Part shown: piece by piece, positions 30,003 to 57,422 of the stretch
How positions within the stretch are numbered: position 1 is the stretch's first letter
How the letters are laid out: every line of letters starts with the position of its first letter
Source of the DNA: Brachypodium distachyon
Taxonomy: Eukaryota > Streptophyta > Magnoliopsida > Poales > Poaceae
Assembly (NCBI RefSeq): GCF_000005505.3
Contig: NC_016131.3
Span: 42,617,355 to 42,681,354 of the forward strand
Direction of reading: 5' to 3'
Length of the DNA: 64,000 nt
The notes under the pieces: generated by a model
The model's input: only the letters and a program-made list of their open reading frames with translations
Told to the model about the DNA's origin: nothing
The model's database searches: none
Position numbers and translations under genes: made by a program

Positions 30003-30257
30003 ATGGCCGTGGTGATCAGGAAGATGAGGCTCGTTCTGCCGGTGCTCGTGGCGGCGCTCGTGCTTCTTGCCGTGCTCGGCGAGGCGGCGCGGCCGTTGGG
30101 CGGCGAAGACTGGGCGGCGGCCGGAGGGACCCCGCTGCCGGGCGCTGCCGCGGCGGCGTCCATGGTCCAGGCGCTCCGGCGGATGTACCTGCAGCAGCTG
30201 GGCGGGCCGGGCGCCTCCTGCGGCACCAACAGCCCCAACAACGGATGCCCGCCGTAG
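30003..30257 (+). CDS. Small secreted cysteine-pair peptide precursor, copy 1 (84 aa)
   Basis: Intronless, ATG at 30003 (context AGCCATGG), TAG at 30255-30257. Residues 1-28 form a signal peptide (RKMRLVLPVLVAALVLLAVLGEA). It is followed by ARPLGGEDWA, an Ala/Gly-rich spacer, and the conserved tail MYLQQLGGPGASCGTNSPNN + GCPP with cysteines at 73 and 82 (CX8C). The short precursor, secretion signal and conservation confined to the C-terminus suggest an apoplastic signalling peptide released by proteolysis. It has four intact paralogs in the window (40723, 43987, 47051, 56253). I do not recognise the gene by name. Part of the tail (C-x-T-N-S-P-x-x-G-C) recalls the CTNIP/SCREW phytocytokines, but this is unverified. 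An antimicrobial role is less likely with only two cysteines. Confidence 0.8.
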   Translation: MAVVIRKMRLVLPVLVAALVLLAVLGEAARPLGGEDWAAAGGTPLPGAAAAASMVQALRRMYLQQLGGPGASCGTNSPNNGCPP

Positions 30258-31329
30258 GATCCACGAAGCAATCAAGACGTACGGCGCATCTGGGCCGTCC
30301 ATCCGTCCAGGCGCTTCCTCTCGCCCTCTCGGGTGGCAGGAGCAACTTTGTCTTAACGACCCTGCGAGGTAGAATCGGTCGCAGAATATATATCTTCGTT
30401 TTTTTTCCCTAGGCCGGACTAACGTTTCGGCGATGGATGGTTCATGGTTGGTATTGAATTCGTTGGTTAGTTCCTTGGTGATTTTTACCCTCGTAGTACA
30501 TACGCTCGCTGGGTATCAAATTTGTACAGAAAAAAGATCACACATATACTGAGATATACACCGTAGTACGTATGGTATGTTTGAATAAAGCGTAAAGCAC
30601 AAGCAAGCATCAGCATGGATGTATGCGTACTCCCTTTCTATCTAGATTGTTGTTCAGGTTCCTGATGATTTGTAATGGGCGATTATCAAATATCAGTCAA
30701 ACACAGTTCTGTTCTTTGATTCGTGAATCCACGCATGCCAGTTGTTAGTAGTACGTACGCGTGGATGCTTGCAGGATGACAACGTCACTCGTGGCCTCAT
30801 GGGCCGAGAAAGGAAGAATTTCTCATAGCGTGTCAGGCTGCCGTAGGTTCCACCGTTTCTAGGTGGGGTTAGTTGGGCTTCCCTTTTTCCTTCTTCGGCT
30901 GGGCGGCAAATAAGTCAGAGGCGGTGGTCACCTGGCCCAAATCGATCTAATATAGCTGTACTTGTACATGCCGGCCTCGCCGTAGTAATTACCGGCGTCT
31001 TTATGTCACCGTCTTGTACGCTGCCCCTTTGTTTCTCCCTTACCTATGCTCTTTTTTTTTTGGATTCTCAAACAAAAAAAGCTTATGCTCTTTAAAAAAA
31101 AAATGATCTCCCTTACCTATCCAACGTGAAAGGGATGGCAGTCGATTAGTTTAGTCACACATTAAGAGTGTATAAATTTAAATTGTTACTGTGGAAAAAA
31201 CATATCAACTTATATAAATTTAGTCGCACAATAAAAGTGTATAAAGTTAAATTGCATGTTTATGTGAAACAACATGTCAACTAATAAAAAAATTGGACAC
31301 AAATTTATAGAACTGTGTTCGATCATGAG
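30258..31329. other. 3' UTR of peptide gene 1 and spacer
   Basis: No coding signal. The peptide 3' UTR probably ends within about 400 bp. Homopolymer-rich sequence around 31050-31100 and two similar TTTAGTC(A/G)CACA-TAA-AGTGTATAAA blocks (31149 and 31219) are the only structure seen. Confidence 0.5.
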
Positions 31330-31930
31330 CATGGTTTTAAATAGCGCGCTATGGCATTTAGCGCCGGTCTCATCTAGATGCTATAGACGTTATAGCATGC
31401 TATAGCACGCGCTATTTCAAATAACGTTTTGCAAAAAAATGAATCAAATTTAGCCCAAATTAAATGTTTCAGCATAACAACGTACTAAAAAGTTCTCCAA
31501 TCATTTCGAAGACCAAATCCATGACATAAACAGAAGATACGAGGCATAATTGAAGCACTGGAGGTGACGCTGCTGGTTGCAAGCTGGAGGAAAGGCGGTC
31601 TGTTGTGAGTTGGAGGAAGGAGCCGTCGCCACCGCTGCCGGTCACGAGCTATGCGGATTTGCCGCCTCCGCCCTCATGGTGGAACCTGTTAGGTCTGAGA
31701 GACCGAGACTGGGAGATTTTGAGCATGGTCTTTAAGCCGACGTGGTACTATTTGAATTTCGGATGCTATAATATTTAGCGACGCTATAGCATATAGCGTT
31801 TAGCGTCATTTAGCGTGCTAATAGTGAGAATAGCGGCATAGCGAGAAAAATTGTTTAAACGTAACGTCGGGTCTTCAGATATGCTATAGCGACGCTATAG
31901 CGAGGAAATAGCGCGCTATTTAAAACCATG
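31330..31930. mobile_element. hAT-type MITE, 601 bp
   Basis: The termini are perfect 23-bp inverted repeats starting CATGGTTTTAAATAGCGCGC at 31330 and ending GCGCGCTATTTAAAACCATG at 31930. An 8-bp target duplication ATCATGAG flanks it at 31322-31329 and 31931-31938. An 8-bp TSD and CA...TG ends place it in the hAT superfamily. The interior has many TATAGC/TTTAGCG motifs and no transposase. Confidence 0.95.
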
Positions 31931-31938
31931 ATCATGAG

Positions 31939-32726
31939 TCAAAGTTGGTAAAGTTTGACTACATACATCATGGGACGACATGAATGAAGAAAGATCGATA
32001 TCGTTGACATGAGGGGTCGAGGGTTAATAGCCAACTACAAATTTCACTTTCTTTTCTACAAGTTAGGCACATCGAAAATTAAGGTTATAAAGGTGCAACT
32101 AGGTGAGACAAGCCTATATGATGATACCAAGAGAAGTACAAGGAAAACACAAGATAAACAATACAAGTAAAGTGCTCGGGTATAAAGATAACCGAGGCAC
32201 ACAAAGACTATGTTTTATCCCAATGCTCACTTTCTTAGAAGGAAGCTAATCATCATTGGAGAGGTGGAGGAACCACCATAGGTTTTTCGAACAACCTTAA
32301 AGGCATGGCTCGCCTTCTTCTCGTTGTGCCTCTCCAAATAAACTAAAGACCCAATCGCTCATTTTAGATTTTGAGTTGATTTCTGAACCATTACAAATCT
32401 TTCCAGAGAAAATCCATACCTCTGGATGCTCTCGGAAGGACTCCAACCGTCTAGGAGTTCCTGCAACTCCAAGTGTAAGTCAAAGGGAAACAAATCCCTT
32501 TGGTGGAAGTGTAAATCTGAGGCTCCTCTCACTTTTCCCTCAAAGGATTGGTGAAATCTGAGCAAGCAAGGACAAGCTATATATTTTGATCTTGAAGTTG
32601 AGTTTAATATATGGAGTTGTATGGAGAGTGTAGCACAACTTAAGTCGGGGCCAAAGAGATAACCCTTGGGGAAGAAGGTTGGAGCCTTTCATATGCATGC
32701 ACAAATATGCCTTGGGAATTTCCCTA
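31939..32726. other. Spacer, no gene supported
   Basis: AT-rich sequence without domain-bearing frames. Nothing further was identified. Confidence 0.5.
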
Positions 32727-33814
32727 AAAAAATATGTCTTGGGAAAGACCCGCCACCGGGAAATTGCCCAGGATCCTCTAATTAAACACCCTTTAATTAA
32801 TCAAAGTAAACAAGATGATTAACTTCACAATTTTTTATGGGCAAACTTCAGTTTAAAAGGAATACCATATGTTTTTCCCAGGCTCGATTAATCAGCTAGC
32901 TCTATCAAAGTTGGGAAATTTTCAGCAGCCTGGAGGCTCACCTGGACCCTCCATATCAGCATTCGGGAAGCACCTGGCGAGTTACCCGATCTCTGGAACC
33001 ACCTGAGTCTAGAAGCCTCTTAATTCACCCAAATCTCAGCCTGGGGGGTAGTAGAAACTAGAACCCGGAGCAGCCTCTGGCCAAATATCTGGACGAGTCC
33101 AGAGACTTGTGAAACTCATCCTGAGTGTAGACCGGTAGCATACTCGGATTCCGAGTAGCCTCCACACTACCACAGACGCGAATATCCTTGTCAGTCCAGA
33201 ACCGACCGGAAAATACGTTTTCCCAACAGGAATATGACTCCTGTGTGCTAGCCGACAGGAATAGACACTCAGGAAAAAAATATGTCTTGGGAAAGACCCG
33301 CCACCGGGAAATTGCCCAAGATCCTCTAATTAAACACCCTTTAATTAATCAAAGTAAACAAGATGATTAACTTCACAATTTTTTATGGGCAAACTTCAGT
33401 TTAAAAGGAATACCATATGTTTTTCCCAGGCTCGATTAATCAGCTAGCTCTATCAAAGTTGGGAAATTTTCAGCAGCCTGGAGGCTCACCTGGACCCTCC
33501 ATATCAGCATTCGGGAAGCACCTGGCGAGTTACCCGATCTCTGGAACCACCTGAGTCTAGAAGCCTCTTAATTCACCCAAATCTCAGCCTGGGGGGTAGT
33601 AGAAACTAGAACCCGGAGCAGCCTCTGGCCAAATATCTGGACGAGTCCAGAGACTTGTGAAACTCATCCTGAGTGTAGACCGGTAGCATACTCGGATTCC
33701 GAGTAGCCTCCACACTACCACAGACGCGAATATCCTTGTCAGTCCAGAACCGACCGGAAAATACGTTTTCCCAACAGGAATATGACTCCTGTGTGCTAGC
33801 CGACAGGAATAGAC
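32727..33814. repeat. 548-bp tandem duplication spanning the CACTA left end
   Basis: The segment from AATATGTCTTGGGAAAGACC (32731) to GCCGACAGGAATAGAC (ending 33266) recurs with a period of 548 bp (33279-33814), almost without differences (for example CCCAGGATCC versus CCCAAGATCC). Each copy contains about 430 bp of flanking DNA plus the first about 100 bp of the CACTA element (terminus at 33165 and 33713). A filler of about 8 bp (ACTCAGG) lies at the junction. Confidence 0.95.
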
Positions 33815-35095
33815 GGCAGGGATAGCTTGACAGGGATATTCCAATATGCCTGTGTGTCCACCGACATGAGCTATATTCCTGTCGGCCACTCCCGTCAGCC
33901 ACCGATAGGAATATAATCCGTCGTCAGGTGGAGGCTCATCAGCTCAAGGATTTTCCTGTCGGTTAATGCTGTCAGTGGACGCACAGGAAAATAAATTTAT
34001 AGAAAAAGGAATTTTCCATCGTCAGGCCTACACTTTTGCCTGTGCGGCCACCCCGACAGGAAAATGACAAGAATATACCTAGAATGGCATCACGGCCGAC
34101 AGGGACAATTGCAAAAACTGACAGGAAAATTGGACATGGCACGACAGGAAAATAGGAAAAACAGACAGGAAATATGTAGATGATCAATAGTGAATACAAT
34201 TCATATTTGTATAGCACAATTACAATTGAATCTAATCTCAACAGTACATATAACCCACAAGAAAGTCACAAATAAGTTTATACTGTCCAGAATATGCAAA
34301 CAAGTTCCAAGCATCACAACACATAGTCTAATACATGCCAGTCCTACATGAATTGGAGCTTGACAAACCACATGTCAGGACTCACAACCATGAACATACC
34401 ACAAAACACACAAGTTCAGCAAACGTTCCAAGTGACCAAAAGTTAGAACTACCCCACAACCACCTTCACTTGTCAAGTCAGAACTACCCAACAACCACCT
34501 TCTCTTGTCAGGGCTCGGGACCGGGTTGTTAGAGCCATTAGTTCTCCCACACGATCTAATGTTGTTGTTGTTGCCATCGGTGTGCTCATCTACCAAGTCA
34601 TGATTGCCTTCCTCACCATACATGTTGGCCAAGCCACCCTTATGAGCTATCACTTCCAAGCCTGCGTCCAAGCCTTCCAAGCCACCACCAATGTTGTTGT
34701 GGTCACCTTGGGATACAACACGAGATGACACAGGAGTTCCCTGCATAAGGAGATGTAGTCAATAATTTATATGAGCACAAAACAACTTCGGTTGCATCAC
34801 CTTACCAACAATATAGCATCTAATACTCATGCTATGTTGGACAACATTAACATGAGGCAACATCCTCATTGCAGCAAGAATAGTTTCCATTTTGACATAT
34901 ATAACAATTTTGGTCATGTACAATAAAGCAGAAGGATTTTGTTTTTGTACATGATAAACTTACTTGTGGTGTTGGAAACAAATTGGTTCCAAGCCAAGCT
35001 GGTGGGTCTTTTTTCATGTCCTTGAAAAGTTCCTACAAAAGTAAAGTGCAACATCAAGATAATTATTCCTAGAAGAACCACTGAGTTGAATTTTT

Positions 35096-35878
35096 TTATA
35101 GAGATACACGTACCAATATGAGTCGCTCATACATTTCGTGTTTCTGATCATGCAACTCTTGTTTATTCTCTAGATTTTCATTGGCAACCTTCAGCTTCTC
35201 ATTTTCATGAATTACATGCTGGAGTTGAAGGCTTTGTCGAGACGACAAAGGACGACCCAACGTTTTGGATTTTTTGGCTTGCCTTCCAGCACATATGATT
35301 TCATCCTTAGAAATATCCCCATCTCCCTTTGGCAATCGGCCATGTGGTATGCCACCACCTGATTTATATAGCACCTCTCCATCAATCTCTTCAGGATGCC
35401 AATCATCGGGAAGATCCGGGTTCATTTCTTTAGTTGTTTGAACATACTCATCCTACAAAGATAGAATAATCAAGTGTTGCAACGATGTATTTTAGACAAG
35501 TATTGCAAGGAGGAAATTTAGAAAAGTTTATACATACAATCTGCTTTTGAGCAATACGAGGTATTGCTCCACGTGGCTTGCCATGTTCATCCAGATTCTT
35601 AAACCCATATTTCATTGCAGCATATGTATCTATCACCGAAGCATTATCAGAACCATAAGAATCTGCTTGCAAGTCAATACGAATAATATAAGACATTATT
35701 GTGACCAACATTCAGAAAATAGAGAAGAAATCAACACAAGACATACCATACGTTCTTGTGCCATACCAATTGGCATTGAACCTCCACGAATCTGAGCAAC
35801 TTCTTGTCCTTTCGATCGACACACCTTTCCCCTCTTCCTTTTTGCCTCAAACTCTTCCGAACTCCAATAACGACACAT
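35096..35878 (-). pseudogene. CACTA TnpA-like (Ptta/En/Spm) transposase remnant
   Basis: Minus-strand pieces read WSSEEFEAKRKRGKVCRSKG, QIRGGSMPIGMAQER, then after probable introns YAAMKYGFKNLDEHGKPRG and NPDLPDDWHPEEIDG. A Gln/Glu/Lys-rich coiled coil (QHVIHENEKLKVANENLENK) follows. This is the usual order in Ptta/En/Spm proteins that bind subterminal repeats. Further exon-like sequence may reach 34375. Exact splicing was not settled. Confidence 0.6.
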
Positions 35879-36058
35879 TGCACCCCATGCATGTTCAGGG
35901 AACCATGGTATCCTGCTTTCTAGGTATTCATGTAGATGAGTTCTTCTCCACGTGCCAAAGAATCATCAAGCATATCTCCTTTCTTCTCAAAGTGCATCTT
36001 CACTACATTTGTGCGGAGCTGGTACATCATGTCCACCACCTTTTTCCTTTCATAGTTC

Positions 36059-36334
36059 TCAAGGTTGATGATGGGTATTACCAATGTCAGCTACCATATC
36101 ATCCATATGGTCAATGTCATCACATGAATGATGTATTGGCACTGCTCCACTACTGTTAGCAACAATCCTCTCCCCATGTTGAGACCATCTTTCATACCTT
36201 TCCTTAAATCCATTTTTGAACAAGTGGGTCTCTACACTGTCCCTAGTTCCTCTGACATAATTTCTACAGATGCGGCATGGACATTTAATTTTACCATCTT
36301 GAACTACACTAGGCAAAGAGAAAGCGTGATTCAA
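36059..36334 (-). pseudogene. CACTA TnpD N-terminal transposase-associated domain
   Basis: The minus-strand frame carries KIKCPCRICRN, VETHLFKNGFKERYERWSQHGE and an acidic DDIDHMDDMV stretch, matching the zinc-binding transposase-associated domain at the start of plant CACTA TnpD proteins. The DDE catalytic domain that should follow is missing, and TnpA-type sequence comes soon after. It was probably left by an internal deletion. Confidence 0.75.
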
Positions 36335-36937
36335 GAATCAACCAGTTTTTGCAATCCATTCATTATCGGGAATTTTATCATGATGCCAATCATTATACAT
36401 CTAAACCCGATTCACCATTTACCAATTGTTGTGTTTAAAACATAATTCAAACAATTCAATGCTACTGTCAACCATTGCACATCATACATAACAAAATCAA
36501 AATTAACCGCAGACAAGTCAAAAGTGAAAAATCACACCTGTTGCCTGTCGTCTCCCTTCCCAAACTGCTTGACCAGAGAAAAACCTAGTCCAGTTGCCTT
36601 GCTACTGTTCGGATGTCGGAATTGAACTTAATTTTCAGTACAAGTACCATCCGTGGTGTGTATAACACAAGATTTAGAAGAGAAGGAGGAGTACTTACAG
36701 CCAAATTTTACGAGTGGGGGAGGAGGTGGGCTGCACCATGCAGCTGCTCCATTCCGGGATGTAGATCTGGGGAGACAGGGGAGTGGAGAGCGCCGGAGGT
36801 GTGAGCACCGGCCGAGGTAGGAGAGGGAGGCAGGGGCGCGATGGGGAGGCGAGGCCGGCGGAGGAGAGGTAGGGAGGCACGATGGGGAGGCGGGGGGGGG
36901 GGGGCGTGACGGCGGAGGAGAGCGGAGGCGGGGCTGA

Positions 36938-37379
36938 TGTGGGGAGCGGCGGTGGCTCGGAAGGGAGTGGGGAGTGAGAGTGTGAGGGAGGGAGTCGGGA
37001 GGGAATCTAGGGTAAGGGAGAGAGCGTCTGGTTAAAAAAAATTGGATTTGAGACTACTCGGTAAGGGATTGTTACGCCTGGGCTCAGACATGTCTGAGGC
37101 CACGCGTGGGATCTTGCCTCGAGACTAAATATCCCTGTCGGTCCCGCAACTGCCTGATAGTGGGGAGCGGCGGCGGCTCGGAAGGGAGTGGGGAGTGAGA
37201 GTGTGAGGGAGGGAGTCGGGAGGGAATCTAGGGTAAGGGAGAGAGCACTTGGTTAAAAAAAATGGATTTGAGACAGTTCGGTAAGGGATTTTTATGCCTG
37301 GGCTCAGACATGTCTGAGGCCGCGCGTGGGATCTTGCCTCGAGACTAAATATCCATGTCGGTCCTGCAACTACCAGATA
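36938..37379. repeat. 221-bp tandem duplication inside the CACTA element
   Basis: GTGGGGAGCGGCGG at 36939 recurs at 37160, and the similarity (GAGTGTGAGGGAGGGAG, GGCTCAGACATGTCTGAGGC, TTGCCTCGAGACTAAATATC) runs through two adjacent copies with a period of 221 bp. The copies differ at a few positions. Confidence 0.9.
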
Positions 37380-38305
37380 GGAACACAGTTTCCTGTGGGT
37401 TTGGGAAGGAAGCCGACAGGAAAACGCATATTCCTGTGCGCGTTGCCTACAGGAAAATATATATTCCTGTGCGTGTCATCTATACTCACAGGAATAGAAA
37501 ATTAAAATGAAAGATTACACTTGTTTTATAAAGACCGTGTAGTATATTATTTCATATATGTGACTAAATCAAACCAATTCTTGCTAGTACATTGATTTAT
37601 AAATTTTGGAATAATATTTTTGGTAATTCTTTTATACAATACTTCCATTAAATAGTTTTAGAAAATCAAAAACACATTATTTTGTACAAATGGTATCAAA
37701 TAAAAATTACATTTAGTACATTTACAACCTTCTATGCGATTCTTACGTTACACTATAGGGCCAAATCATACTATATCCAACGATGAAAAATGTGCCGAAA
37801 GTTATTGGATAGAAGAGATGAACTCTAAGTTCGACTTACCTTGAACCATTCAAGGCAAGGTATGATCATATCGCACATTTAGGGTTCATATTTTGATTCC
37901 AAGCTTGTTAGGGTGTAACATGAGTCCTCGCTCGGTCTCGCCCAATTTGGAGCTCATTTGGTAAGTCAAAAGTTTCAAAAACATTTTCAATTCTTCTTGT
38001 CGGTATTCAACCCACAGGAAAATACATATTCCCGTTGGCCAGAAAACCCTCCCGACAGGAATAGAAGATTTCCCTGTCGGTGTACAGTTGCCCGACAGGA
38101 ATCTATGTTTATCCCCATGTGTGGGCTTCAAAGCCGACATGAATATATATTTTCATGTGTGTTTAGAGCCGACCGACAGGAAAATGTTTTGTTGACCTGT
38201 GTGCCATGTAATACCTGACAGGGAATACTTCTATTCCTGTCCGTTGGCTGTGGGCCCGACAGGAATAGAAGTCACCCGACAGGAATATATCGGTTTGTGG
38301 TAGTG

Positions 38306-40722: not shown

Positions 40723-40950
40723 ATGGTGATGAGAGGATTTTCTGTGCGGCCATTGATGTTCCTGGTGATCCTGGCCTTCTTCGCCGTCTCCGGCGCAGCG
40801 ACGCGGAGGCTCGGCGGCGACGTGTGGGCGCCGGCCGTCTCCGGCAACGGTGTGACGGCGCAGCTTATCCGGCAAATGTACCTGCAGCGGCTGGGGGCGG
40901 GGCCCTCCTGCGGCACCCACAGCTCAAACGGTGGCTGCCCAGGTCCGTGA
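40723..40950 (+). CDS. Small secreted cysteine-pair peptide precursor, copy 2 (75 aa)
   Basis: Intronless, ATG at 40723 and TGA at 40948-40950. The signal peptide covers about residues 1-26 (MFLVILAFFAVSGAA core). It is followed by RRLGGDVWAPAVSG and the conserved tail LIRQMYLQRLGAGPSCGTHS + SNGGCPGP, with cysteines at 63 and 72 (CX8C). His replaces Asn and Ser replaces Pro relative to copies 1, 4 and 5 (T-H-S-S versus T-N-S-P). The last about 90 coding bases are nearly identical to copy 3, 3.26 kb downstream, so the two arose by a recent tandem duplication or were homogenised by gene conversion. The inferred product is a secreted signalling peptide; the receptor and maturation site are unknown. 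Confidence 0.8.
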   Translation: MVMRGFSVRPLMFLVILAFFAVSGAATRRLGGDVWAPAVSGNGVTAQLIRQMYLQRLGAGPSCGTHSSNGGCPGP

Positions 40951-41334
40951 TTGATCTAGTAGTAGATTCGAGGGCCCATGGAGAAAAGGAATGTTCGTGC
41001 ACTTTGGAGGTACACGTCTCGATGTGTCACTCTAACGGTTTCACATGTAAGAGTGACGATTGACGAGCTACATGAGGGTGGCGGCAATTCTTTTTGTTGT
41101 TTATAAGTTCTGATTCAATCTGTTGAGTTTCTTCTTTTTTACCTTCTTTTACGTAACGGAGATTAAACTCGACTGAATTCTCAGTTTTCTGAGTGTAACT
41201 ATTATAGTTCGATTTTGAATAAAGGTGATGCAATATGTTGTCGCTTTGCTTATTAAATTGACGATGGAATGGTGGCAAGGAAATGGTTCTAGTAGTATTC
41301 GTGGAATGTGTATGCATATAATTTGTTAACCACA

Positions 41335-41410
41335 AAGAGTTTTCTTTTTCGAAAATAGAGGTTTCCGGCCTCTGCATCCAAATCAAACGATCCACGCAAA
41401 CATATTACAA
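41335..41410 (-). mobile_element. Short LINE 3'-end remnant (minus strand)
   Basis: On the minus strand this reads TTTGCGTGGATCGTTTGATT, GGATGCAGAGGCCGGAAACC, then TATTTTCGAAAAAGAAAA, a diverged form of the LINE 3' tail seen at 39419. Confidence 0.5.
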
Positions 41411-42432
41411 TCCAGTTCGCGGGTCACACAACATGAACATAAATAATCAATAATCAATCAGACGAATCTAAAATCTCGCATAACGTGACTATAAGTTTTG
41501 AATTCTAGCAACGGGTCGCCTGCCAGTTGTTGAAGATATCCCATGCACGACCAGCTCTGTCTCCACATAGAGTTTCTTGGATGTGACTACTCGGCAATCG
41601 TTCGTTCAGAAAGTTCAGCATCCTTAGGCGCATTTTCTCTCTCCCGCACGTATGCGTGTCCCATGCATACACATTAGAAGTGAAAATAATTTACCATTTC
41701 TTGCGGAGAAAATTGCCAATCCTTTTGCAGTAGTGATCTTTAGGATTCTATTTTCAAAAGCGCTATTCTGTCCGATCAATAGTATCTGTTTTGGTGAAAT
41801 CAATAATTAATAATATGTTATATTCATACGGGAAAAAATGTGGATAGATCAAGTTCGAAATATGTTTTTTTTAAGGGAAGAAATATGATTGATTTGGGAT
41901 TCGTGGAAGTGTGAGGAAAACATAGTGGTAGGGGGAGGATACAAAAAAAAACGCATTCGATCCCAAGATGGGGTTCCACTGTGAAAGAGATAACGGAACA
42001 AAACAAAACACCCCACTTAAAGGTTCCACAGATGGCAGGCAAGAGATGCACCCAGGTTAAAGTATTTCAGAGAGCGGATCCCAAAGATATTAGATGTGTT
42101 TGGATGGCGACCAAAACCAATCATGCCACAAGAATAATCATGGCCAAATTTTTTGGCTCTTGTTTGGATAGTAGCAAATATTTTAGCATGCCCATTCTAG
42201 TCAATTCAAGTTCCATTTTCTAACATTGGCGAAAACAAGAACGACTGAAACCCACTTGTATTGTTGTTTTAATTGTTCTGGTATGGACATCAACCTTACT
42301 TATTGCCAGATCAAAATGTTCCGGAAAACATCAGAGTGGTGCATGCTTAATGAAGTTAAGAGCTCCAAAAGGAGAATGCGGATATAGAACTTCTATAAGA
42401 TTAAACCTGTTCTCTGCCTATACTCTCAGCAA
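41411..42432. other. Spacer with MITE-like debris
   Basis: No gene. TGTTTGGATGGCGACCAAAA and GGCCAAATTTTTTGGCTC (42100-42165) resemble the end sequences of the putative transposon at 3997-4990. Confidence 0.4.
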
Positions 42433-46513: not shown

Positions 46514-46540
46514 TGACGAAGGATGACCCTCAAATTTTAA

Positions 46541-46915: not shown

Positions 46916-47050
46916 TCCGCCAGGCCAGGCACGGCTATACACTCCATTGATCCAGCAGCTCCATCTGCTGTGCATGCAGCAGTTTGTAGTAGCAGTGTAC
47001 ATTAATAGTCCCTTAGACCCTTTCTAATCCCGTGAGAAGAGCGTTAGATT

Positions 47051-47278: not shown

Positions 47279-49194
47279 TGGGCCGAGAGCTGCGGCCTGG
47301 GCTGAATGTATACCAATGCTCATACCGAGTTGTCCTTAATTAGTCCTTACTTCGCATGGCAGTTTTTTTTTTCTTTTTTTTTTAATAAAACATGTAGCCG
47401 TATGGCTTTGCTTTGGAATTGTATCACCTTTCTGCACGTGAATTTCTCTCTGGTGTTTTTGTAAAGACCAAACATGTTGTATAACACGCTGCCATTCTAT
47501 TTTCTTCTTCGTTTATTTGGAGTTTTGCTACGGATGAATCGGATGATGCGGACGAAGGAACCATCGAACACTAGCTTGCCCCCTAATCCGCGTGTTTCCA
47601 GACACGTTGGCCAAAAAATTATGGAACCCTAATGCGCGCACGCGCGCCACATTCTCATCTAGCGCTTTGTGCAGCCTAACTTTTGCCCACATTTGCTTTT
47701 CTTTCCTCCAAGTGCACTGCTCCTCCATCCGACGTCCGGCCGCCGCCGTCTCGTGGAGTCTTGGTCAATTATCAGCGTCGGTATCATGTCATGCTCCGGA
47801 TTCATCCTTGTCTGGTCCGGATCCGCCGCCGGCGAACACTGAGGTAAGACCATCTACACGTTAGAAGCTTGCTTCCTCTGAATCCATGCACTTTCAGAAG
47901 CTTTCTCTCTGAACAAACTTAACTTGAGGTATAGCTGTAAACCTAGTACAATACGTGTTAATGTAGATCAAGTGCCATCACTGTTGCTGAACCTGATCAA
48001 CCACACCAAAACACATCTGCCGATCGCATGATCAATAAAACAATAACTCAACCTAACAGAGAAAGATGAGTAACACGTACCACACATGCCGTCGCAAGAT
48101 GGTGATGAGCCCGAATTCGACTTATGAAACGCGACGCACGCTCGTGACAAGTGAGTGAGTATGCTAGACCTAGGCATACCTCTGGCCGGACTCCATAAAG
48201 TTCAGCAAAAAAAAAAAAAACGTCAAGCCTGAGGCCCGGAAACATCCTTTTTGGCATGAAAAGAAATTTAATTATATTAATCATTTTCTGAGGGAGAGGG
48301 TATGAAATGATTTATGTATACCTCTTTTCTAACAATTTATAAATTTTAATCATCTCGGCGTTTCTTCAAGCTTTTGGGTCATGCTGCAGGATGAAAATAG
48401 GATCTCAAGCCTGACCCAGGGGTCGTGCTTTGGGCCGATCCACCGGTGACCAAACCCTTCTACCGATTACAATGGTGTAATTATTTCTCTCATAGTAACA
48501 CATGACTAAAAACTTTGTACCGTGATCACTTTACCTAAAAGGTCTTTTGACATTTTTTTTTTAGAAATTAGATATGGACCGATCCTAAATATTTGTAGTA
48601 GTACATCACAAGTAATTGAACTCGTGTCAGTCTTCCAGGTTATGTATTAATTGGAGAATGGAAGACGGTAGAATTCCACAATTCCCTTGTACTATGGATA
48701 GAGGAATTTCCTTGGAAGCTTGGGTATGGTAGGGTAGGGTATGACTCGAACTGGAAATATTCGCCTGAAGGAGCACCGTACAAATCAAAGTTCCGAGCTG
48801 CTGACTTCACATGTAGTATATATCGCCGTGTGGACAACGCGCGCCTTATGATAAAGACTTGACCAAAGGCATATTCTGTTAGTTTTTGAAAGTCAAAGAA
48901 AATAACCAGAGAAAGATCGATGTACGTGCATGCTGTCTAGTTTTATTAATTGCGTCTCCGGCCGGAAATTCCCTTGAATTTGTTGCTTTTATTTGTTTCG
49001 TTCTCCGTTGAAGTCAACGAAATATATATGCGCAGAGAGATGTACTTTTATCTTTAGAGGTACGTTCTTTTTTTACCAATTTTGAGAGGTACTTTATATG
49101 TACTTAGTACAATTGAAATTATTTGTTCTGGTAAACCCACATAAAACAGAGTCGTCCACGCTTACATGAGGCATTTTTTGTCCATTATAAGTAT
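47279..49194. other. 3' UTR and spacer, no gene supported
   Basis: No convincing coding frame. Frames at 47592-47864 and 47968-48284 lack domains. The stretch ends at the copia target site GTTTT (49195-49199). Confidence 0.45.
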
Positions 49195-49199
49195 GTTTT

Positions 49200-49429
49200 T
49201 GTTATAAAATAACTAGTTGTAATGTAAGGGAATATATAGAATGGAGAGAGTGAGAGATAAAAATTGGAAATTCTTATTGCCTTTCCAATACATAAGCTCT
49301 TATATATATATCAATACATGTGAGATGGAGTTACAAGCATTGATGCTAGGAGAGTTACACCATTAAACTAGAAGGTTATAACTTTGATGGTATAGGGGTT
49401 ATGGACATCCACATCAATATTTCATAACA
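49200..49429 (-). repeat. 3' LTR of the copia element
   Basis: The 230-bp LTR starts TGTTATAAAATAACTAG and ends TTTCATAACA. It is the 3' LTR because coding is on the minus strand; the polypurine tract abuts it at 49430-49442. Confidence 0.95.
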
Positions 49430-49564
49430 CTCCCCCTTGGATGTCCATTAACAGGTGAATTGCATGACTTGTTAAAAACCTTGCCAAGGAAAAACCCAGT
49501 GGAAAAAAAAACCATGGTCAAGAAAAAAAGAGTACACACATATTCACTCCCCCTGATGGCAACA

Positions 49565-49992
49565 TCACTTGATGTCTTTTAGCCGTCGCAATCCGATACC
49601 ATGTACCAATTTCTTGAATACTGAAGTAGGGAGTGCTTTTGTGAACAAGTCTGCTAGATTCTCGCTTGAACGAATTTGCTGCACTGTTACAATACCATCC
49701 TTCTGGAGATCGTGAGTGAAGAAAACTTTGGCGAGATATGCTTCACTGTGTCTCCTTTGATATATCCGTCTTTTAGTTGGGTTATACAAGCCATATTATC
49801 CTCGTGTATGACTGTAGGCGCCCCCTTTCCCAAAAGTAAGTTACACTCTTTGCGAATATGATGTGACATACTCCTCAACCACACACATTCTCGGCTAGCT
49901 TCATGGATTGCTAAGATCTCTGCATGGTTAGATGAAGTTGCAGCTATAGTTTGCTTCATTGAACGCCATGAGATTGATGTGCCTCCACACAT
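49565..49992 (-). pseudogene. copia RNase H domain
   Basis: The frame 49687-49992 shows SISWRSMKQTIAATSSNHAE, AIHEASRECVWLRSM and APTVIHEDNMACI, and the overlapping frame 49565-49789 shows HDLQKDGIVTVQQIRSSENL and ADLFTKALPTSVFKKLVHGI. These are the characteristic motifs of the copia RNase H at the pol C-terminus. One frameshift separates them. Confidence 0.85.
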
Positions 49993-50060
49993 AAAGACAT
50001 ATCCAGTTTGTGATCAACCATTATGTGGATCAGATAGATGTCCTGCATCTGCAAAACCAA

Positions 50061-50679
50061 CTATTTCTTCTTTGATTGTGTTAGAAAATATAAACCTATG
50101 TCCTTTGTACCTTCAAGATAAGGTAGTATATGCTTCACACCGTTCCAATGTCGCCTTGTAGGACAAGAGTTATATCTTGCTAACAAATTAACGGAGAATG
50201 CAATATCAGGTCGTGTATGAGTAGAAAGATACAATAATGCTCCAATGGCACTTAAGTAAGGAACCTCAGGGCCAAGAATTTCATTGTCATCCTCTGAGGG
50301 CCTAAAAGGATCTTTCGTTATATCAAGTGACCGGACAACCATTGGGGTACTCAATGGAAGTGCTTTATCCTGTAAAATTGTTTCAAAATTTTGTCTGTAT
50401 AAGTTGTCTGATGCAAAAGAATGCCATCTTTGAGATGTTCTATTTGTAATCCAAGGCAAAATTTGGTCCTTCTAAGATCTTTCATCTCAAATTTCCTTTT
50501 CAAGCAATCCATTGTCTCGGAGAGTCCTTGAGAAGTACCAATCAGACTTAGATCATCAACATATACAGCTATTATCACAAATTCAGCTCCGAATCTTTTT
50601 ATGAATATGCATGGACAAATAGAATCATTTTTGTACCCTTGTTTTGTCAAATATTCACCGAGACGATTATACCACATTC

Positions 50680-50744
<65 letters not shown>

Positions 50745-50782
50745 ACTATCAAGTGAACCATACAAGTATGCTGTAACAACAT
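50061..50782 (-). pseudogene. copia RT C-terminal part with (TA)n insertion
   Basis: After a run of alternating Tyr-Ile codons made by a TA microsatellite, the frame continues MWYNRLGEYLTKQGY, VIIAVYVDDLSLIGT (the YVDD catalytic box), FEMKDL and LGLQIEHLKDGILLHQ. A second frame (50061-50459) has PEVPYLSAIGALLYLSTHTR, the RT/RNase H junction. The palm segment between TAYLYGSLDSDIY and MWYNRL is missing. Confidence 0.85.
50681..50741. repeat. (TA)30 microsatellite inside the copia RT
   Basis: Uninterrupted TA dinucleotides fill 50681-50741, where the RT palm codons of other copia elements would be. Read on the minus strand they extend the frame as (YI)n without a stop. Confidence 0.97.
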
Positions 50783-50809
50783 CCATTAGACGCAATTCAA
50801 GATTCTCTT

Positions 50810-52399
50810 TTATTGCCAGACTAATAAGATATCTAAAGTCGTTGCATCCATCACAGGAGAATATGTTTCTTCATAATCAATTCCACGTCTTTGGGAGAAT
50901 CCTTGGGCAACTAATCGTGCCTTGTATCTCATAATTTCCTCTTTCTCATTTCTCTTTCGCACAAAGACCCACTTGTAACCAACAGGTGTGCGGGTTACGG
51001 GTCCGAAGACTTCTCTTTTTGTAAGAGAATTTAATTCTGCTTGAATTGCATCTTTCCATCTTGGCCAATCTTGTCTTTTCTTGCATTCCTTGACCGATCG
51101 AGGTTCATGATCCTCAGTTTCATCCATAATTTCTAGCGCTAGATTATATGCAAATGCATCATCGATGATGACTTTGTCACGGTTCCAAATTTTTCCCGAC
51201 ATGACATAGTTTAACGAGATCTCATTTTCTAAAGAATCAGGTACCTTTGTCTCTTCTATAGCAATAGCATTTTTCATGTCTACAATCTCCTCGGGAGATT
51301 TTTCTTGGTTTATTATATCCTCGGATTGACCATCTTGATCCTTTGCTCCCTTTCTTTTCCAAGGATTTTTATCTTTGGAACCCAATGGTCTACCTCGTTT
51401 CATGGTAGGTTTTGATTCATTTGCGGTAGACGGTTGCCCATGTTGGACATCAATTCTTTCAGGAGCATTAGCAGCTGAAATATATGACGTTGTCACTCTT
51501 TTTAAGTTTGTAAAAGCGTCTGGCAAATTATTCGCTAAGCTTTGTAAATGAATTATCCTTTGAACTTCTTGCTCACATAGGTTTGTACGAGGATCAAAGT
51601 GAGATAGTGATAATTCATTCCAGCTTATTTCTTTAGTTAGCTGCTTATCCTCTCCCCCTGTTGTTGGGAAATTTGACTCATCAAAATGACAATCAGCAAA
51701 TCTTGCTGTAAATACATCTCCTGTTGATGGTTCAAGATATTTTATTATAGAAGGGGACTCATATCCAACATATATTTCCAACCTTCTTTGAGGTCCCATC
51801 TTTGTGCGCTTTGGTGGAGCAATTGGGACATACACCGCACATCCAAAGATTCTTAGACGGGAAATATCTTGCTCTTTGCCAAAAACCAACCGTAGAGGGG
51901 AAGAACTATGGTAACTTGTTGGCCTGATGCGAATTAATGCCGCTGCATTAAAAATAGCATGTCCCCATGCAGACATTGGGAGTTTTGACTTCATAAGTAA
52001 TGGTCTCGCTATTAATTGGAGACGTTTAATAAATGACTCAGCAAGACCATTCTGTGTATGAACATGTGCAACTGGATGTTCAACACTTATTCCAATCGGC
52101 ATGCGGTACTCATTGAAGCGTTTTGATGTAAATTCACCGGCATTATCCAGGCACATAGTTTTAATCAGATTATCTGGAAACTGAGCTCTTAACTTGAATA
52201 TTTGAGCCAACAACCGCGCAAATGCTAGATTGCGGGTTGATAGTAAGGAGACGTGAGACCATCTAGTTGATGCATCAATTAAAACCATAAAATATCTAAA
52301 TGGTCCACTTGGTGGATGAATTGGTCCACATATATCTCCTTGTATGCGCTCCAGAAAAGCGAGGGACTGATGTCCAATTTTAGCCAGTGATGGACGCAC
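50810..52399 (-). pseudogene. copia integrase core and N-terminal reverse transcriptase
   Basis: Integrase motifs GDICGPIHPPSGPFRYFMVL (first D), CLDNAGEFTSKRF (second D) and HVHTQNGLAESFIKR (Glu) are in order, followed by the copia-specific VFGKEQDISRLRIFGCAVYV. The RT begins with WKDAIQAELNSL, YKWVFVRKRNE, YKARLVAQGFSQR and YEETYSPVMD. The frame shifts at about 50810, before the remaining RT blocks. Confidence 0.9.
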
Positions 52400-52480
52400 A
52401 ATCAGTTTCCGTTGAGAGCATGCGATGCATGGGAAGTCATTCGATTAGAGAACTTTTTCATTCTTTAGTTCATGATCGCA

Positions 52481-53037
52481 TTAACTATTAATAATTTTTC
52501 GCATCATTACTGATCCGGGATGGCCTAGCCGGTCATGCCATGTGATAAAATTGCTATGGTTGGTGAACTTCGGTTCCACCACCATATATGACTCATTCCT
52601 TTTGAGACTTGTATAGTATAAACCAGAAGATAATTCTGGTAATTTCTCCAACACATATTTTTCCCCGATGACATCTTTGTATTGTTGAGGCACTCCACAT
52701 TACCCTCGCACATTGTCTCTATATGATAGCCATTTAGGCGTATATCTTTAAAAGTCAACAAATTTCTTTGAGACTTTGGGGAATAAAGTGCTTCGTTTAT
52801 GTCTACCTTTGTCCCACAAGGTAACATTATTGTGGCTCTTCCTGAGCCCTCTATCAATTTAGCTCTTCCAGATATTGTATTAACAACCGCGTCATGTATC
52901 ACAAGGTACGAAAAATATACTTTACTCTTTAGTATGGTATGCGTTGTTGCACTGTCTATACGACATATATCTTCTTCATTCGGAAGATCTTGAGCCAAAG
53001 AGTTTTCCATATATACTTCAAAAGAAACATATACCAA
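52481..53037 (-). pseudogene. copia protease and pre-integrase region
   Basis: The first frame (to 52525) carries CRIDSATTHTIL, the aspartic protease active-site region with D-S-A in place of the usual D-S-G/D-T-G, and SPKSQRNLLTFKDIRLNGYH. The overlapping frame 52481-52693 has FITWHDRLGHPGSVMMRKII, the GAG-pre-integrase zinc-finger lead. A frameshift near 52690 separates them. Confidence 0.8.
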
Positions 53038-53395
53038 TAAATATTAGTTTATTAGAATAAATTTATTAAATACTAAACAGTTACATGCATGAGTATTAAA
53101 CACAGATATGAATTTATTCTGTAGCAAAGGAAGTTACAACATACTTAACTCTTACTGTAATTAAGACATATTTATTCTTATGTGGACTAGAAAATTACAA
53201 TATAAATTATTCTTGAATGAAGAAATCAGAAACATCCAATATTTTGGTGTTCGGCAGTTTCGTGCCAAATGGGGTTTTCCTCCACAACGATGGCATGGAT
53301 ATTCAGTTTTATCCATTTCACGATTTTCTTTATCTCTCTTTTCTTGTCTTTCATGAGGTCTAGTTGTGTTCTTGAAGCGAACACTATAATTTCCT

Positions 53396-53767
53396 CTACC
53401 ACGACCTCGTCCCCATGTGCACGTCCTCTATTTTGGTAATCATATCTTGTCGCATTCGCTTTAGGGAATGGACTAGAACCACTTGGGCGTGACTCATGGT
53501 TTTCATCAAAAGCTCATTGTTTTGTTCAGCCAAAAGCAAACAAGAAATAAGTTCGGAATATTTATTGAATCCTTTCTCACGGTATTGCTGCTGAGGCAAC
53601 ACATTTGATGCATGGAATGTAGAGCATGTTTTCTCTAGCATCTCTTCATTTGTTATTTTTTCTCCACGCAACAGTAACAGTGATGTGGCTGAATTGTATT
53701 CAGAAACACTTTTATAGTCTTGCAACCTTAGGTGCAACCACTCATAACGAGCTTTAGGGAGGATCAC
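53396..53767 (-). pseudogene. copia gag fragment (UBN2-type)
   Basis: The minus-strand frame includes ARYEWLHLRLQDYKSVSEYN, KITNEEMLEKTCSTFHASN and LISCLLLAEQNNELLMK, typical of the copia gag capsid region. The N-terminal part upstream (toward 54100) is missing or replaced by hairpin sequence. A CX2CX4HX4C-like zinc knuckle may follow out of frame near 53270-53330. Confidence 0.75.
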
Positions 53768-53819
53768 TGTTTTCTGATGATCAAATCTTTCTTTTCGTTT
53801 GTTCCAAAGAACAAAATCA

Positions 53820-53902
53820 AAGCCTTAGCTTTATCTTGGCTAGATGCATTTTTTTATCGCATCACCAAGCCCATTGGCATAGCCAAGATAAAGCTAAGGC
53901 TT
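53820..53902. repeat. Perfect 23-bp hairpin in the copia leader
   Basis: AAGCCTTAGCTTTATCTTGG at 53820 is mirrored exactly by CCAAGATAAAGCTAAGGCTT ending at 53902 (23-bp arms, 37-nt loop). ATTCAACATAGTAAACTACA also recurs as a direct repeat at about 53941 and 53997. Confidence 0.9.
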
Positions 53903-54170
53903 GGCAAGATAAAGCTTTCTTTTAGTTTGTTCTTGTCCGAAATTCAACATAGTAAACTACAAAATATCCAGAGTCGTGAAATCAAGCTTGGCAAGATTCA
54001 ACATAGTAAACTACAAAATATATAGATTGCAAACTTCAAACAATCGCGCAAGAACAAAATATAGAAACAAATACAAAAAATAATGTCTTACCACAAAAAT
54101 AACATTACGATCAACGAAAAGTTTCTTACCTAGTTCTTGACAGCTTTTAGAGGCAGTTGTGCTGATAACG

Positions 54171-54400
54171 TGTTATAAAATAACTAGTTGTAATGTAAGG
54201 GAATATATAGAATGGAGAGAGTGAGAGATGAAAATTGGAAATTTTTATTGCCTTTCCAATACATAAGCTCTCATATATATAGCCATACATGTGAGATGGA
54301 GTTACAAGCACTGATGCTAGGAGAGTTACACCATTAAACTAGAAGGTTATAACTTTGATGGTATAGGGGTTATGGACATCCACATCAATATTTCATAACA
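54171..54400 (-). repeat. 5' LTR of the copia element
   Basis: Same 230-bp sequence as 49200-49429 with few substitutions (for example GATAAAAATTGG versus GATGAAAATTGG). The high identity implies a fairly recent insertion despite the broken coding region. Confidence 0.95.
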
Positions 54401-54405
54401 GTTTT

Positions 54406-55052
54406 CTTTTTTTAGTGAAAAGCATTGTAAGGGGACGTACAGTGGCTACATATCAGGTAAAAACCCCTATTCAGTGAAAAATAAAAACTTTCAATCCGAA
54501 CCATTAGATCACAAATAAATGATTGAAATGAAATGTGGAACCTCTAATCATTTAAAGATATTTTATGAAAAAAACCACGAGGTGGGATTCTTTAAGGGTT
54601 TTTTGCTTCATAAAATGCATTTACCTGAATACAGGTTCCACCTTTTATATCAATCGTTTATTTAAATCAACTGGATAGGATTGAAGTTTTCAAGTTTGCA
54701 CTGAAAACAGGGTTCACTGAATACATTTCCACGTACAATAATGGTTGATGAGACTGCATTTTTTTGTACATTCCAAATCATTTAGAGAATACAATAAGAC
54801 ATGTTATATAATAGGTTATCTTTAAGTGTCATATTTTGCAAGTTTAAGTGAATAAAATTAAATAAATGAATGTAAAAAATGTGTAATCTGTTTTTTATCG
54901 GGGTAAAAAAGGGTGTAATCTAGTACAATGGAAAAATACGATGTATCTTCTTTTGAAGAGATTGATCATCTCTTGGTTAAAAGAAGGCCTAAGAAAAGGA
55001 TGACATACGATGTACACCGAACCAACCAATTGATTGGTGAACCAACCTAAAA
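54406..55052. other. Spacer, no gene supported
   Basis: AT-rich sequence between the copia element and the next MITE; nothing recognised. Confidence 0.5.
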
Positions 55053-55582
55053 ATAGTATATGAGTAAAAATACACAGGTAGTTCATAAACTCGGAGCAAA
55101 TGCACACTTTAGTCCACGAATTCAGAAAATGCACACATAAAACCCTAAACTGGTATTAGTGTAACACTTAGGTCCAAAAACGGTTCTGCAAGATTAATTT
55201 CGGCCACTTGGCAGCCACATTAGCTTAAGTCAGGACCATAGGTTGCTATTTGGGTTTCTCGAGGGTTTTTTTTCCAAAAAACTAACATAATTCTAGAAAA
55301 ATTGACATAATTTTCTGCGGGTTGCTTTTAAATGCGGAAAAAATAACATAATTATGTGCATGTTGCTGTTAAATTTTTGCAACCCCCCCCCCCCCCAAGA
55401 AACCCAGCAGAACCTACGGTCCTGCCGATGTGGCTGAAATTAACCACGTCGAACTATTTTTGGATCTAAGTGTTACAGTAATACAAGTTTAGGGTTTTAT
55501 GTGTGCATTTTCTGAGTTCATTGACTAAAGTGTGCATTTGTTCTGAATTTATGGATTAGTAGTGTATTTTACTCATATATTG
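55053..55582. mobile_element. Foldback MITE, about 530 bp
   Basis: The arms of about 140 bp are inverted copies: TATATGAGTAAAAATACACA...AAATGCACACTTTAGTC... ACATAAAACCCTAAACTGG on the left and CCAAATTTA-free mirrored AAGTTTAGGGTTTTATGTGT...GACTAAAGTGTGCATTTG...TTTTACTCATATA on the right. The centre has a C15 run near 55383. The exact target duplication is ambiguous because of TATAT at the ends, so the superfamily is open. Confidence 0.75.
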
Positions 55583-55939
55583 CCAGTCTAGCCACCGGTA
55601 GAGAGTATAACTGAGTCTAAAAAATTGGTGGAAAGGGACTCTCGAGGATAGGCCATCTGACTTGATCGGCACGGTCGCAGGGTGAACCGTAGATTTGCTA
55701 GTGCAGCCCCCGGGCAAGATCACGCATTGTGGAAGCTGCGGTGGAGTTGGTCTAGGATCTCGCGGCTGAGATATGCAAGATGAAATTGCTTTATGTCGTG
55801 TGATTTGTATTGAACCTTGAGAGCTGCTCTCAGATCATCGTATCGTATGTTTCCATAATTTTGAGGGAATTTCTCATTCTATTAATTAAAAATTAGGGCA
55901 GTATATATGTTTCCATAATTACTCATATTTCCAACTTAT
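55583..55939. other. Spacer, no gene supported
   Basis: No coding signal. TATATGTTTCCATAATT recurs at 55845 and 55903. Confidence 0.4.
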
Positions 55940-55971
55940 AGTCAAATCCTTTGCTGAGTCGCACACATGAG

Positions 55972-56157
55972 TTTATATAGTTCAAGAACTCATGAGTTTC
56001 AGTCAAATCACGGATCCAACCTTTGTATGAGTTTCAGTCAAATCACGGATCCAACCCAGCCGATCCATTGCCTTTATATAGTTCAAGAACTCATGAGTTT
56101 CAGTCAAATCACGGATCCAACCTTTGTATGAGTTTCAGTCAAATCACGGATCCAACC
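55972..56157 (+). promoter_or_regulatory. Amplified promoter repeat with W-boxes and duplicated TATA box (peptide gene 5)
   Basis: ATGAGTTTCAGTCAAATCAC and the following GGATCCAACC occur four times, starting at 55992, 56027, 56093 and 56128, as two 35-bp pairs inside a 101-bp duplication. Each holds AGTCAA, the complement of the W-box TTGACT; a further AGTCAA lies at about 55940. TTTATATAG, a TATA box, is present in both larger copies (55972-55980 and 56073-56081). The nearer TATA is 172 bp before the ATG. Confidence 0.8.
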
Positions 56158-56252
56158 CTTGCACTGCAATTTTGCGGCACAAGCTTAGATAGCAACCTAC
56201 AGCATTGTTTGCAAATTATTTTCCGTGCAGTGATCAGAAATTCTGAATTCAA

Positions 56253-56504
56253 ATGACGATGAGATCAAAGTTTATCGTGCCAGTGATCGTCATGGCGATC
56301 ACGGCGCTCCTCGTCACGTCGATGTCGGCACGTCCATTATTGGACGGCGAAACGTGGGCCGGAGAGTCCTCAACAGCGGCAGTCGCTGGCGAGTCAATCC
56401 TCAAGCTTCCTGCCGGGCTGTATCTGCAGAAGTTAGGGGCAAGGCCGTCCTGCACAACGAACAGCCCAAGCGTTGGATGCCCCCCACCCCCACCTAACGG
56501 TTAA
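56253..56504 (+). CDS. Small secreted cysteine-pair peptide precursor, copy 5 (83 aa)
   Basis: Intronless, ATG at 56253 and TAA at 56502-56504. The signal peptide is about residues 1-26 (FIVPVIVMAITALLVTSMSA). It is followed by RPLLDGETWAGESS, a spacer, and the tail LYLQKLGARPSCTTNSPSVG + CPPPPPNG with cysteines at 67 and 76 (CX8C). Here Thr replaces the Gly after the first Cys, and the second Cys is followed by a Pro run, which could be hydroxylated. A second ATG two codons later (MTM) could also serve; the first is chosen because the frame and hydrophobic core fit either. The gene has a tandem, frameshifted copy 0.92 kb downstream that shares promoter and 3' sequence. Confidence 0.8.
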   Translation: MTMRSKFIVPVIVMAITALLVTSMSARPLLDGETWAGESSTAAVAGESILKLPAGLYLQKLGARPSCTTNSPSVGCPPPPPNG

Positions 56505-56726
56505 GGGCGACCTATAGATGTACTAGTAGTTGTTTTATGATGTACCGGTCAAGCAGTCACATCGTTTCGTACTTCGATTATTATTGTTGTTGAATGTCAT
56601 ACATATACCCGCAGGGTCATCTTAATCTTGATCTGTGCATGGTGACTGGTGAACCGTAAGGAACAACATCTATACATACGTACTTGAAGGCTTCTCAAAT
56701 AAGTTGCACTAGACGAGGGTCTTCAC

Positions 56727-57032
56727 TGGATATGCTAAGTAAAAATAAGTTTATACAAGTTTATATCACAAAATATCAACATTTGCGATACCAAACAAAT
56801 AGTATAAAAATATTTAATAGGATACAAATAAACCTGGTAAACTTATTTTTATACTATATTTATTTTGTACGAATGGACCATAGTACCAAATAAATATATA
56901 AAAATAAATACCAAGATTTATAATACCAAAATATCAATATAAATAGATCCATTATTAAATATTTTATACTATATTTATTTGGTATCATAAATGTTGATTT
57001 TTTGTGATATAAACTTGGCTAAACTTTTTTTA
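56727..57032. mobile_element. Foldback MITE between peptide copies 5 and 6
   Basis: ACAAGTTTATATCACAAAAT, AACATTTGCGATACCAAA and TAGTATAAAAATATTTAATA on the left are mirrored by TATTAAATATTTTATACTAT, TTTGGTATCATAAATGTT and TTTTTTGTGATATAAACTTG on the right. The right arm recurs at 57794-57857, downstream of copy 6. Confidence 0.7.
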
Positions 57033-57037
57033 TATAG
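57029..57037 (+). promoter_or_regulatory. TATA box region of peptide copy 6
   Basis: TTTATATAG is followed by TTCCAAAACTCATGAGTTTG and AGTCAA (W-box complement), a single diverged copy of the repeat found four times before copy 5. Confidence 0.65.
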
Positions 57038-57171
57038 TTCCAAAACTCATGAGTTTGAGTCAAATCTCGGATCCAACCCTTGCACCGCAACATTGCGGCA
57101 CAAGCTTAGATAGCTACCCAACATTGTTTGCAAATTATTTTCTGTGCAGCGATCAGAAATTCTGAATTCAG

Positions 57172-57422
57172 ATGACAATGAGATTGAAGTTTATTGTGCC
57201 AGTGATCCTCATCGCGATCACAGCGTTCCTCCTCAGTCGACGTCGGCACGGCCATTATTGGACGGCGAAACGCGGGCCGGAGAGTCCTCATCGGCGGCCG
57301 TCGTCGGCGAGTCAATCCTCAAGCTTCCTCGCGGGCTGTATCTTCACAAGTTAGGGGCAGGGCCATCCTGCAAAACAAACAGCCCAAGTGTTGGATGCCC
57401 CCCACCCCCACATACGGGTTAA
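57172..57422 (+). pseudogene. Small secreted peptide precursor, copy 6, frameshifted
   Basis: From the ATG at 57172 the signal peptide starts as in copy 5 (KFIVPVILIAITAFLL). A one-base deletion near 57235 then moves the frame, giving an unrelated Arg-rich sequence. The conserved remainder is in the next frame: SARPLLDGETRAGESSSAAV and LYLHKLGAGPSCKTNSPSVG + CPPPPHTG, stop at 57420-57422, CX8C kept. Trp of the GETWA block is changed to Arg. The alternative frame opens from 57144 but has no ATG-started signal peptide. It is therefore a recent pseudogene, unless the deletion is a sequencing error. Confidence 0.8.

Follow-up and report, generated by a model that had tools for sequence, protein, structure and literature searches.

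We analysed a 64,000-nucleotide stretch of the Brachypodium distachyon genome (NC_016131.3, positions 42,617,355 to 42,681,354; this whole stretch is called the window below) and found on its forward strand, between positions 30003 and 57422, a tandem array of five intact open reading frames (ORFs) and one broken copy (Table 1). The precursors are 75-84 amino acids (aa) long, and the tails of all six array copies carry two cysteines separated by eight residues and followed by a proline (C-x8-C-P). The original prediction had listed six same-strand copies, five of them intact, with 75-84 residues and CX8C tails, and the ORFs and their translations bear this out; its description of the tails as near-identical holds within a type, but not across the array, whose genes represent different types. 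The window contains the full tail pattern six times, whereas 100 first-order Markov sequences matched to its composition do not contain it once; the bare C-x8-C-P string is at chance level (nine in the window; Markov mean 7.8, maximum 16).

Table 1. Features of the window, with the dispersed seventh gene copy found elsewhere in the genome
Feature	Position	Strand	Remarks
Gene 1, type I precursor, 84 aa	30003-30257	+	ORF; tail RRMYLQQLGGPGASCGTNSPNNGCPP
Gene 2, type II precursor, 75 aa	40723-40950	+	ORF; matches BRADI_1g44380v3, gene model different
Predicted GT-AG intron, 671 base pairs (bp)	40943-41613	+	Placed by matching the BRADI_1g44380v3 tail GGCPVQHP to the DNA
Gene 3, type II precursor, 78 aa	43987-44223	+	ORF; tree partner is gene 2 (98/89)
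Gene 4, type III-like precursor, 75 aa	47051-47278	+	ORF; long branch, placement unsure
Gene 5, type III-like precursor, 83 aa	56253-56504	+	ORF; long branch, placement unsure
Copy 6, broken	57172-57422	+	ATG at 57172; tail 57366-57401 intact; stop ends at 57422
Seventh copy, dispersed, type IV	G000:C4:58727810-58728028 (L004:1498-1734)	-	Tail SCQTWNPNGGC
101-bp tandem unit, 1.9 copies, 100% identity	55972-56158	+	Upstream of gene 5; carries TTGACY cores
Long interspersed nuclear element (LINE)-type element	23688-28699		RVT_1, zf-RVT, RVT_3
Copia-type element	49687-53010	-	Between genes 4 and 5
Second copia-type element	60833-63528	+
Pentatricopeptide repeat (PPR) gene	8178-10028
Region behind the PPR gene	10603-19172		Exon 18690-19172 with KHA domain of plant potassium channel

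The precursors have a hydrophobic stretch within the first 30 residues (15-aa peak of 2.6-3.2 near the N-terminus), after which the mature part begins with a sequence resembling Ala-Arg-Pro-Leu. An AlphaFold model of gene 1, built with 24 rows, has a mean predicted local distance difference test (pLDDT) score of 60.9 and contains helices at residues 2-28 and 48-65 only, with no folded domain. No Pfam family scored above the cut-off in a scan of the five intact genes, and searches of solved structures, made with one precursor and with a profile of the grass family, returned chance-level matches only. As modelled, the build is that of a C-terminally encoded peptide hormone and not that of a defensin-like protein.

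The broken copy has its ATG and signal-peptide start in one frame and its mature part and tail in another. It is a duplicate of gene 5, the two lying 918-919 bp apart and sharing 89-90% identity across two aligned blocks; a stretch related to the 101-bp unit precedes it. The whole genome (271,293,937 bases in 11 contigs) was searched three times with family proteins; taken together, the searches yielded the six window copies and one dispersed copy. The latter stops at the second cysteine, without the proline of the array copies, and same-type proteins of oat and Puccinellia do the same. For four more genome matches (L014 and L022-L024; all E>0.1), nothing family-like was seen by eye in 800-base translations.

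The genes had also been described as intronless, which is uncertain for gene 2. The database protein BRADI_1g44380v3 (P0096; 66 aa, C-terminus GGCPVQHP) begins at a methionine internal to gene 2, and its tail fits a GT-AG intron in the DNA (Table 1). This intron, predicted from the database model, would affect only the residues after GGCP, changing the final GP to VQHP.

Conservation and constraint across grasses

With gene 1 as query, 37 database proteins (gene 1 itself included) matched at E<=0.01; with an alignment of 13 mature regions, 246 of 7982 scored candidates matched at E<=10. Among the 120 matches listed of these 246, all rows that name an organism name a grass (for example, rice, wheat, barley, oat, sorghum, Setaria, switchgrass, Phragmites, and Eleusine), and no credible function name appears: the named ones are mostly “hypothetical” or “uncharacterized”, and P0022 carries an unlikely automatic name. 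Some database rows are ENA contigs of ~500-1300 bases, which may be transcript assemblies. All 121 grass proteins that we retrieved, five of them from Brachypodium distachyon, contain a C-terminal C-x8-C, a count that is partly by construction since family queries were used; after residue 20, exactly two cysteines are present in 116 of them and three in the other five. We found no paper naming this family in open-licence PubMed Central, although subscription papers, preprints, and supplements could differ.

We built a tree of 64 selected proteins (63 of the 121 retrieved, plus the dispersed copy), based on 86 columns, with a warning of few columns and many unresolved forks. A division supported at 100/99 separates a type I side of 30 rows, type IV included, from a type II/III side of 34 rows; the dispersed type IV copy sits on a long branch and its placement is unsure. 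Because each side has members of both of what we take to be the two deep grass lineages, the separation of the main types would, on this tree, be older than that of these two lineages. The order of types in the window is I, II, II, III-like, III-like, and broken. The Aegilops loci follow the same order (063392 is type I, 063394-063395 are type II, and 063398 is type III), and different types are found at close locus numbers in Setaria, Puccinellia, Eleusine, Paspalum, Digitaria, and Stipagrostis; the locus numbers suggest that the array order has been kept. What had been called an expanded grass locus is, according to the tree, an ancient and shared array, and not mainly a recent expansion in Brachypodium.

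To compare the tail with the rest of the precursor, nonsynonymous (dN) and synonymous (dS) divergence was computed for five gene pairs out of the ten that the intact copies allow; the tail offers 16.5-19.5 synonymous sites per pair, so the values are rough. Tail dN is lower than that of the rest in all five pairs: genes 1-4 (tail dN 0.091, dS 1.648; rest dN 0.66, dS 0.691), genes 3-4 (tail 0.118 and 0.884; rest 0.582 and 0.659), genes 4-5 (tail 0.207 and 0.949; rest 0.439 and 0.956), genes 1-3 (tail 0.16 and 0.458; rest 0.501 and 1.056), and genes 2-3 (tail 0.041 and 0.055; rest 0.14 and 0.27). In the four divergent pairs, the tail dN/dS lies between 0.06 (genes 1-4) and 0.35 (genes 1-3), as compared to 0.46-0.96 for the rest. 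Similarly, the residues identical between gene 1 and rice P0030 number 25 of 26 in the tail and 35 of the 54 aligned in the rest; the corresponding counts are 24/26 and 32/56 for Setaria, 23/26 and 30/53 for Phragmites, 21/25 and 30/57 for sorghum, and 24/26 and 46/53 for Avena. Two comparisons speak against a constrained tail: the young pair, genes 2-3, has a higher dN/dS in the tail (0.75, from only three tail changes) than in the rest (0.52), and for wheat P0011 the identity to gene 1 is no better in the tail (20/26) than in the rest (46/56). The grass homologues, the lower tail dN, the hydrophobic N-terminus, and the lack of a folded domain support the original prediction that the precursors are short, secreted-looking, and members of a conserved family under selection at the tail.

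Upstream elements and neighbouring features

TTGACY (W-box) cores number six each in the 1 kilobase (kb) upstream of gene 1 (29003-30002) and of gene 5 (55253-56252); the background mean is 1.33 per kb, and at least six are found in 2.8% of 1-kb stretches. Upstream of the other copies there are none (genes 2 and 3), one (gene 4), or three (copy 6), and the total in the window is ordinary (86 cores; 20 of 100 shuffles reach 86). The cores at gene 5 come partly from the 101-bp tandem repeat. As regards elicitor induction, the clusters at gene 1 and gene 5 give no more than a hint.

The remaining features (Table 1) are a LINE-type element, two copia-type elements, the PPR gene, and the region behind it. 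In the latter, the ORF at 10603 resembles channel sequence and has no Pfam match.

Candidate ligands and the HSL3 receptor clade

CTNIPs are described by Rhodes et al. 2022 (PMC9191895) as stress-induced peptides that bind the receptor HSL3 (AT5G25930) and recruit BAK1; in CTNIP4, a 23-aa C-terminal segment containing the two cysteines suffices for activity. The name SCREW, with NUT for the receptor, is used there and in later reviews. The 2022 paper reports no clear CTNIP in Poaceae, together with an expanded HSL3, and leaves open what HSL3 perceives in this family, to which the main cereals belong. Two reviews link HSL3/NUT signalling to immunity and to stomatal water loss (PMC12907539, PMC13056886).

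We searched the Brachypodium genome with an HSL3-ectodomain query, and the best matches include four stretches, L025-L028. A tree was built from AtHSL3 and the best 16 of 97 matched stretches. It groups AtHSL3 with L025-L028 and no others (87/85), and these four form a clade of their own (100/97); three lie within C4:6.54-6.83 megabases (Mb), at 6.54, 6.81, and 6.83 Mb, and one at C1:34.15 Mb. With a single dicot reference sequence, this is moderate evidence that Brachypodium has four HSL3 co-orthologues, in agreement with the HSL3 expansion in Poaceae described in sections of PMC9191895. The open frame around the match in L027 has only 392 residues, and this gene may be intron-split or broken. 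The genome thus appears to keep several HSL3 receptors, although the published survey, in its passages on Poaceae, reports no clear grass CTNIP (PMC9191895).

The genes in the array very probably encode C-terminally encoded signalling peptides. The hydrophobic N-terminus would be a signal peptide and the precursor would be secreted; the middle section would be a disposable pro-region; and the ligand would be approximately the last 23-26 residues, containing the two invariant cysteines, processed and released in the apoplast, with its ring probably closed by a disulfide. The likeliest receptors would be the grass HSL3-clade leucine-rich repeat (LRR) receptor kinases together with a BAK1-type co-receptor, and perception by this clade would make the family a divergent grass counterpart of CTNIP/SCREW, presumably with a role in stress. 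We regard the odds of this counterpart relationship as balanced, and for the two statements jointly (signalling peptides, and the grass counterpart of CTNIP/SCREW) we estimate a probability of about 0.5. A phytocytokine (immune) role is suggested by analogy only.

The family supplies short, synthesizable candidate ligands, as well as four candidate receptors, in a model grass, which reduces the question of what HSL3 perceives in Poaceae to one assay. If these peptides were the missing grass ligand of HSL3, ligand and receptor would have diverged together across a whole plant family; even with another receptor, a tail-constrained peptide family found in many grasses is worth a functional assignment.

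Comparison with CTNIP/SCREW and other peptide families

A made-up CTNIP motif profile, whose power a simulation judged too weak for the protein database, matched two peptide chains in the PDB, 9wum_B and 9w1s_C; both carry the CTNIP motif, and in each entry their partner, chain A, is AT5G25930. A protein search then returned 25 proteins with the same tail as these peptides; all of the named ones (one row is unnamed) belong to what we take to be the order Brassicales. From the motif and the PDB entries we consider the 25 proteins to be probable CTNIPs, and 24 of them form the alignment used below (A7; the 44-residue P0145 was excluded). This Brassicales-only set has an effective diversity of ~1.6 in hhalign, and the comparison is underpowered. 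Against 37 grass rows (A8), hhalign gave an E of 2.2e-5 and a probability of 76%, and this score was reached by 0 of 150, 0 of 150, and 1 of 150 permutations of the mature CTNIP columns, respectively, in three column settings. The common core of the two profiles is Q-x-L-(Q)-x-G-P, followed by a cysteine.

A number of results weigh against a grass counterpart of CTNIP/SCREW. With rare columns trimmed, the hhalign E rises to 0.0062-0.023 and six of 300 permutations reach the mature-region score; the “first” setting gives an E of 0.0059, as compared to ~1e-5 to 2e-5 in the other five settings; and with the grass alignment A1 in place of A8 the E is 0.0018 and the probability 15%. In Smith-Waterman comparisons of 10 CTNIPs with 19 grass proteins, 10 of 600 permutations reach the family mean, and 33 of 600 reach the score of the best single pair. 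A two-sequence CTNIP profile made from the PDB peptides gives the grass proteins at most 0.5 bits (the best shuffles score 10.1), and a CTNIP query against the genome, run without a positive control, returned no candidates. In addition, the second grass cysteine falls opposite the first CTNIP cysteine in the best profile alignment, in the joint MAFFT alignment, and in the best pairwise alignment, and pairing like with like would need insertions or deletions within the loop. The contiguous CTNIP motif is found in none of the 121 grass proteins and in 23 of the 25 Brassicales CTNIPs (for the looser C[TP][NH]IP, none and all 25); the residues between the cysteines number eight in the grasses (nine from cysteine to cysteine), but nine (22 of 25) or ten (3 of 25) in the CTNIPs. 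The filter for CTNIP candidates, as worded in part of PMC9191895, takes two C-terminal cysteines with a spacing of 9-11; if this counts the residues between them, the grass family, with eight, would be dropped.

These results would fit an independent, grass-specific family of two-cysteine signalling peptides with another receptor, whose likeness to CTNIP (a short, Gly/Pro-rich tail with two cysteines) is convergent, and we consider this alternative tenable but rather doubtful. The CTNIP motif is absent from the grass proteins and the cysteine register is ambiguous, the similarity is marginal with trimmed columns and in pairwise scores, and no non-grass plant is named among the 120 matches listed. 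On the other hand, the raw hhalign score is reached by just 0-1 of 150 column permutations, the grass and CTNIP precursors are the same in layout, and CTNIP is reported missing (PMC9191895) from the very plant family in which these genes are present and the CTNIP receptor is retained.

It is improbable that the genes encode small secreted proteins with an antimicrobial role or another role outside signalling. The products are short, secreted-looking, and multigene, with two cysteines and a weakly positive tail, but Lys/Arg number only one or two in the three tails counted, the precursor lacks a folded domain and mostly has exactly two cysteines after residue 20 (116 of 121), and, by ratio, four of the five pairs show the constraint in the short tail. 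Defensins, LTP, RALF, and EPF are likewise small, secreted, and cysteine-containing, and have four or more cysteines that form a fold; with two cysteines in 116 of 121, a low-confidence gene 1 model without a fold, and no Pfam family above the cut-off in the intact genes, we rejected a folded cysteine-rich protein of this kind. PIP, CEP, IDA, and CLE share with the grass family the short secreted precursor conserved at its C-terminus, and have family core motifs and no cysteine pair. Membership in these was rejected as well: G.GH is found in four and SGPS in three of the 121 grass proteins, IDA- or CLE-like patterns in none, and the cysteine pair in all. One of the six window copies is broken, as chance ORFs or decayed gene relics might be, but this reading is very unlikely for the five intact copies taken together, given the absence of the tail pattern from 100 random sequences, the homologues in many grasses, and the low tail dN/dS in divergent pairs.

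The grass family and CTNIP/SCREW share a layout: both have a short precursor, a hydrophobic N-terminus with Arg-Pro soon after it, [FY]..QxLxxGP, two cysteines near the C-terminal end, and a Gly/Pro/Asn-rich tail. The mature part starts with Arg-x-Leu/Phe in 118 of the 121 grass proteins, and a similar start is seen in 24 of the 25 CTNIPs; [FY]..QxL..P is found in 103 and 19 of them, respectively, and GP shortly upstream of the cysteine pair in 102 and 23. Where CTNIPs have the CTNIP motif, 65 of the 121 grass proteins have C-x-TN-x-P. The CTNIP analogy drawn by the original prediction points to the nearest real candidate relative, but one that is weak by sequence, with hhalign results that depend on the settings and a two-sequence profile that fails; we regard a relation as roughly as likely as not and refrain from classing the family as CTNIP. 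Tentatively, and with a chance that we would put slightly short of even, CTNIP in Poaceae may have been rewritten rather than lost, its motif turned into C-x-TN-S-P or its cysteines shifted by one, in an ancient array that multiplied alongside HSL3.

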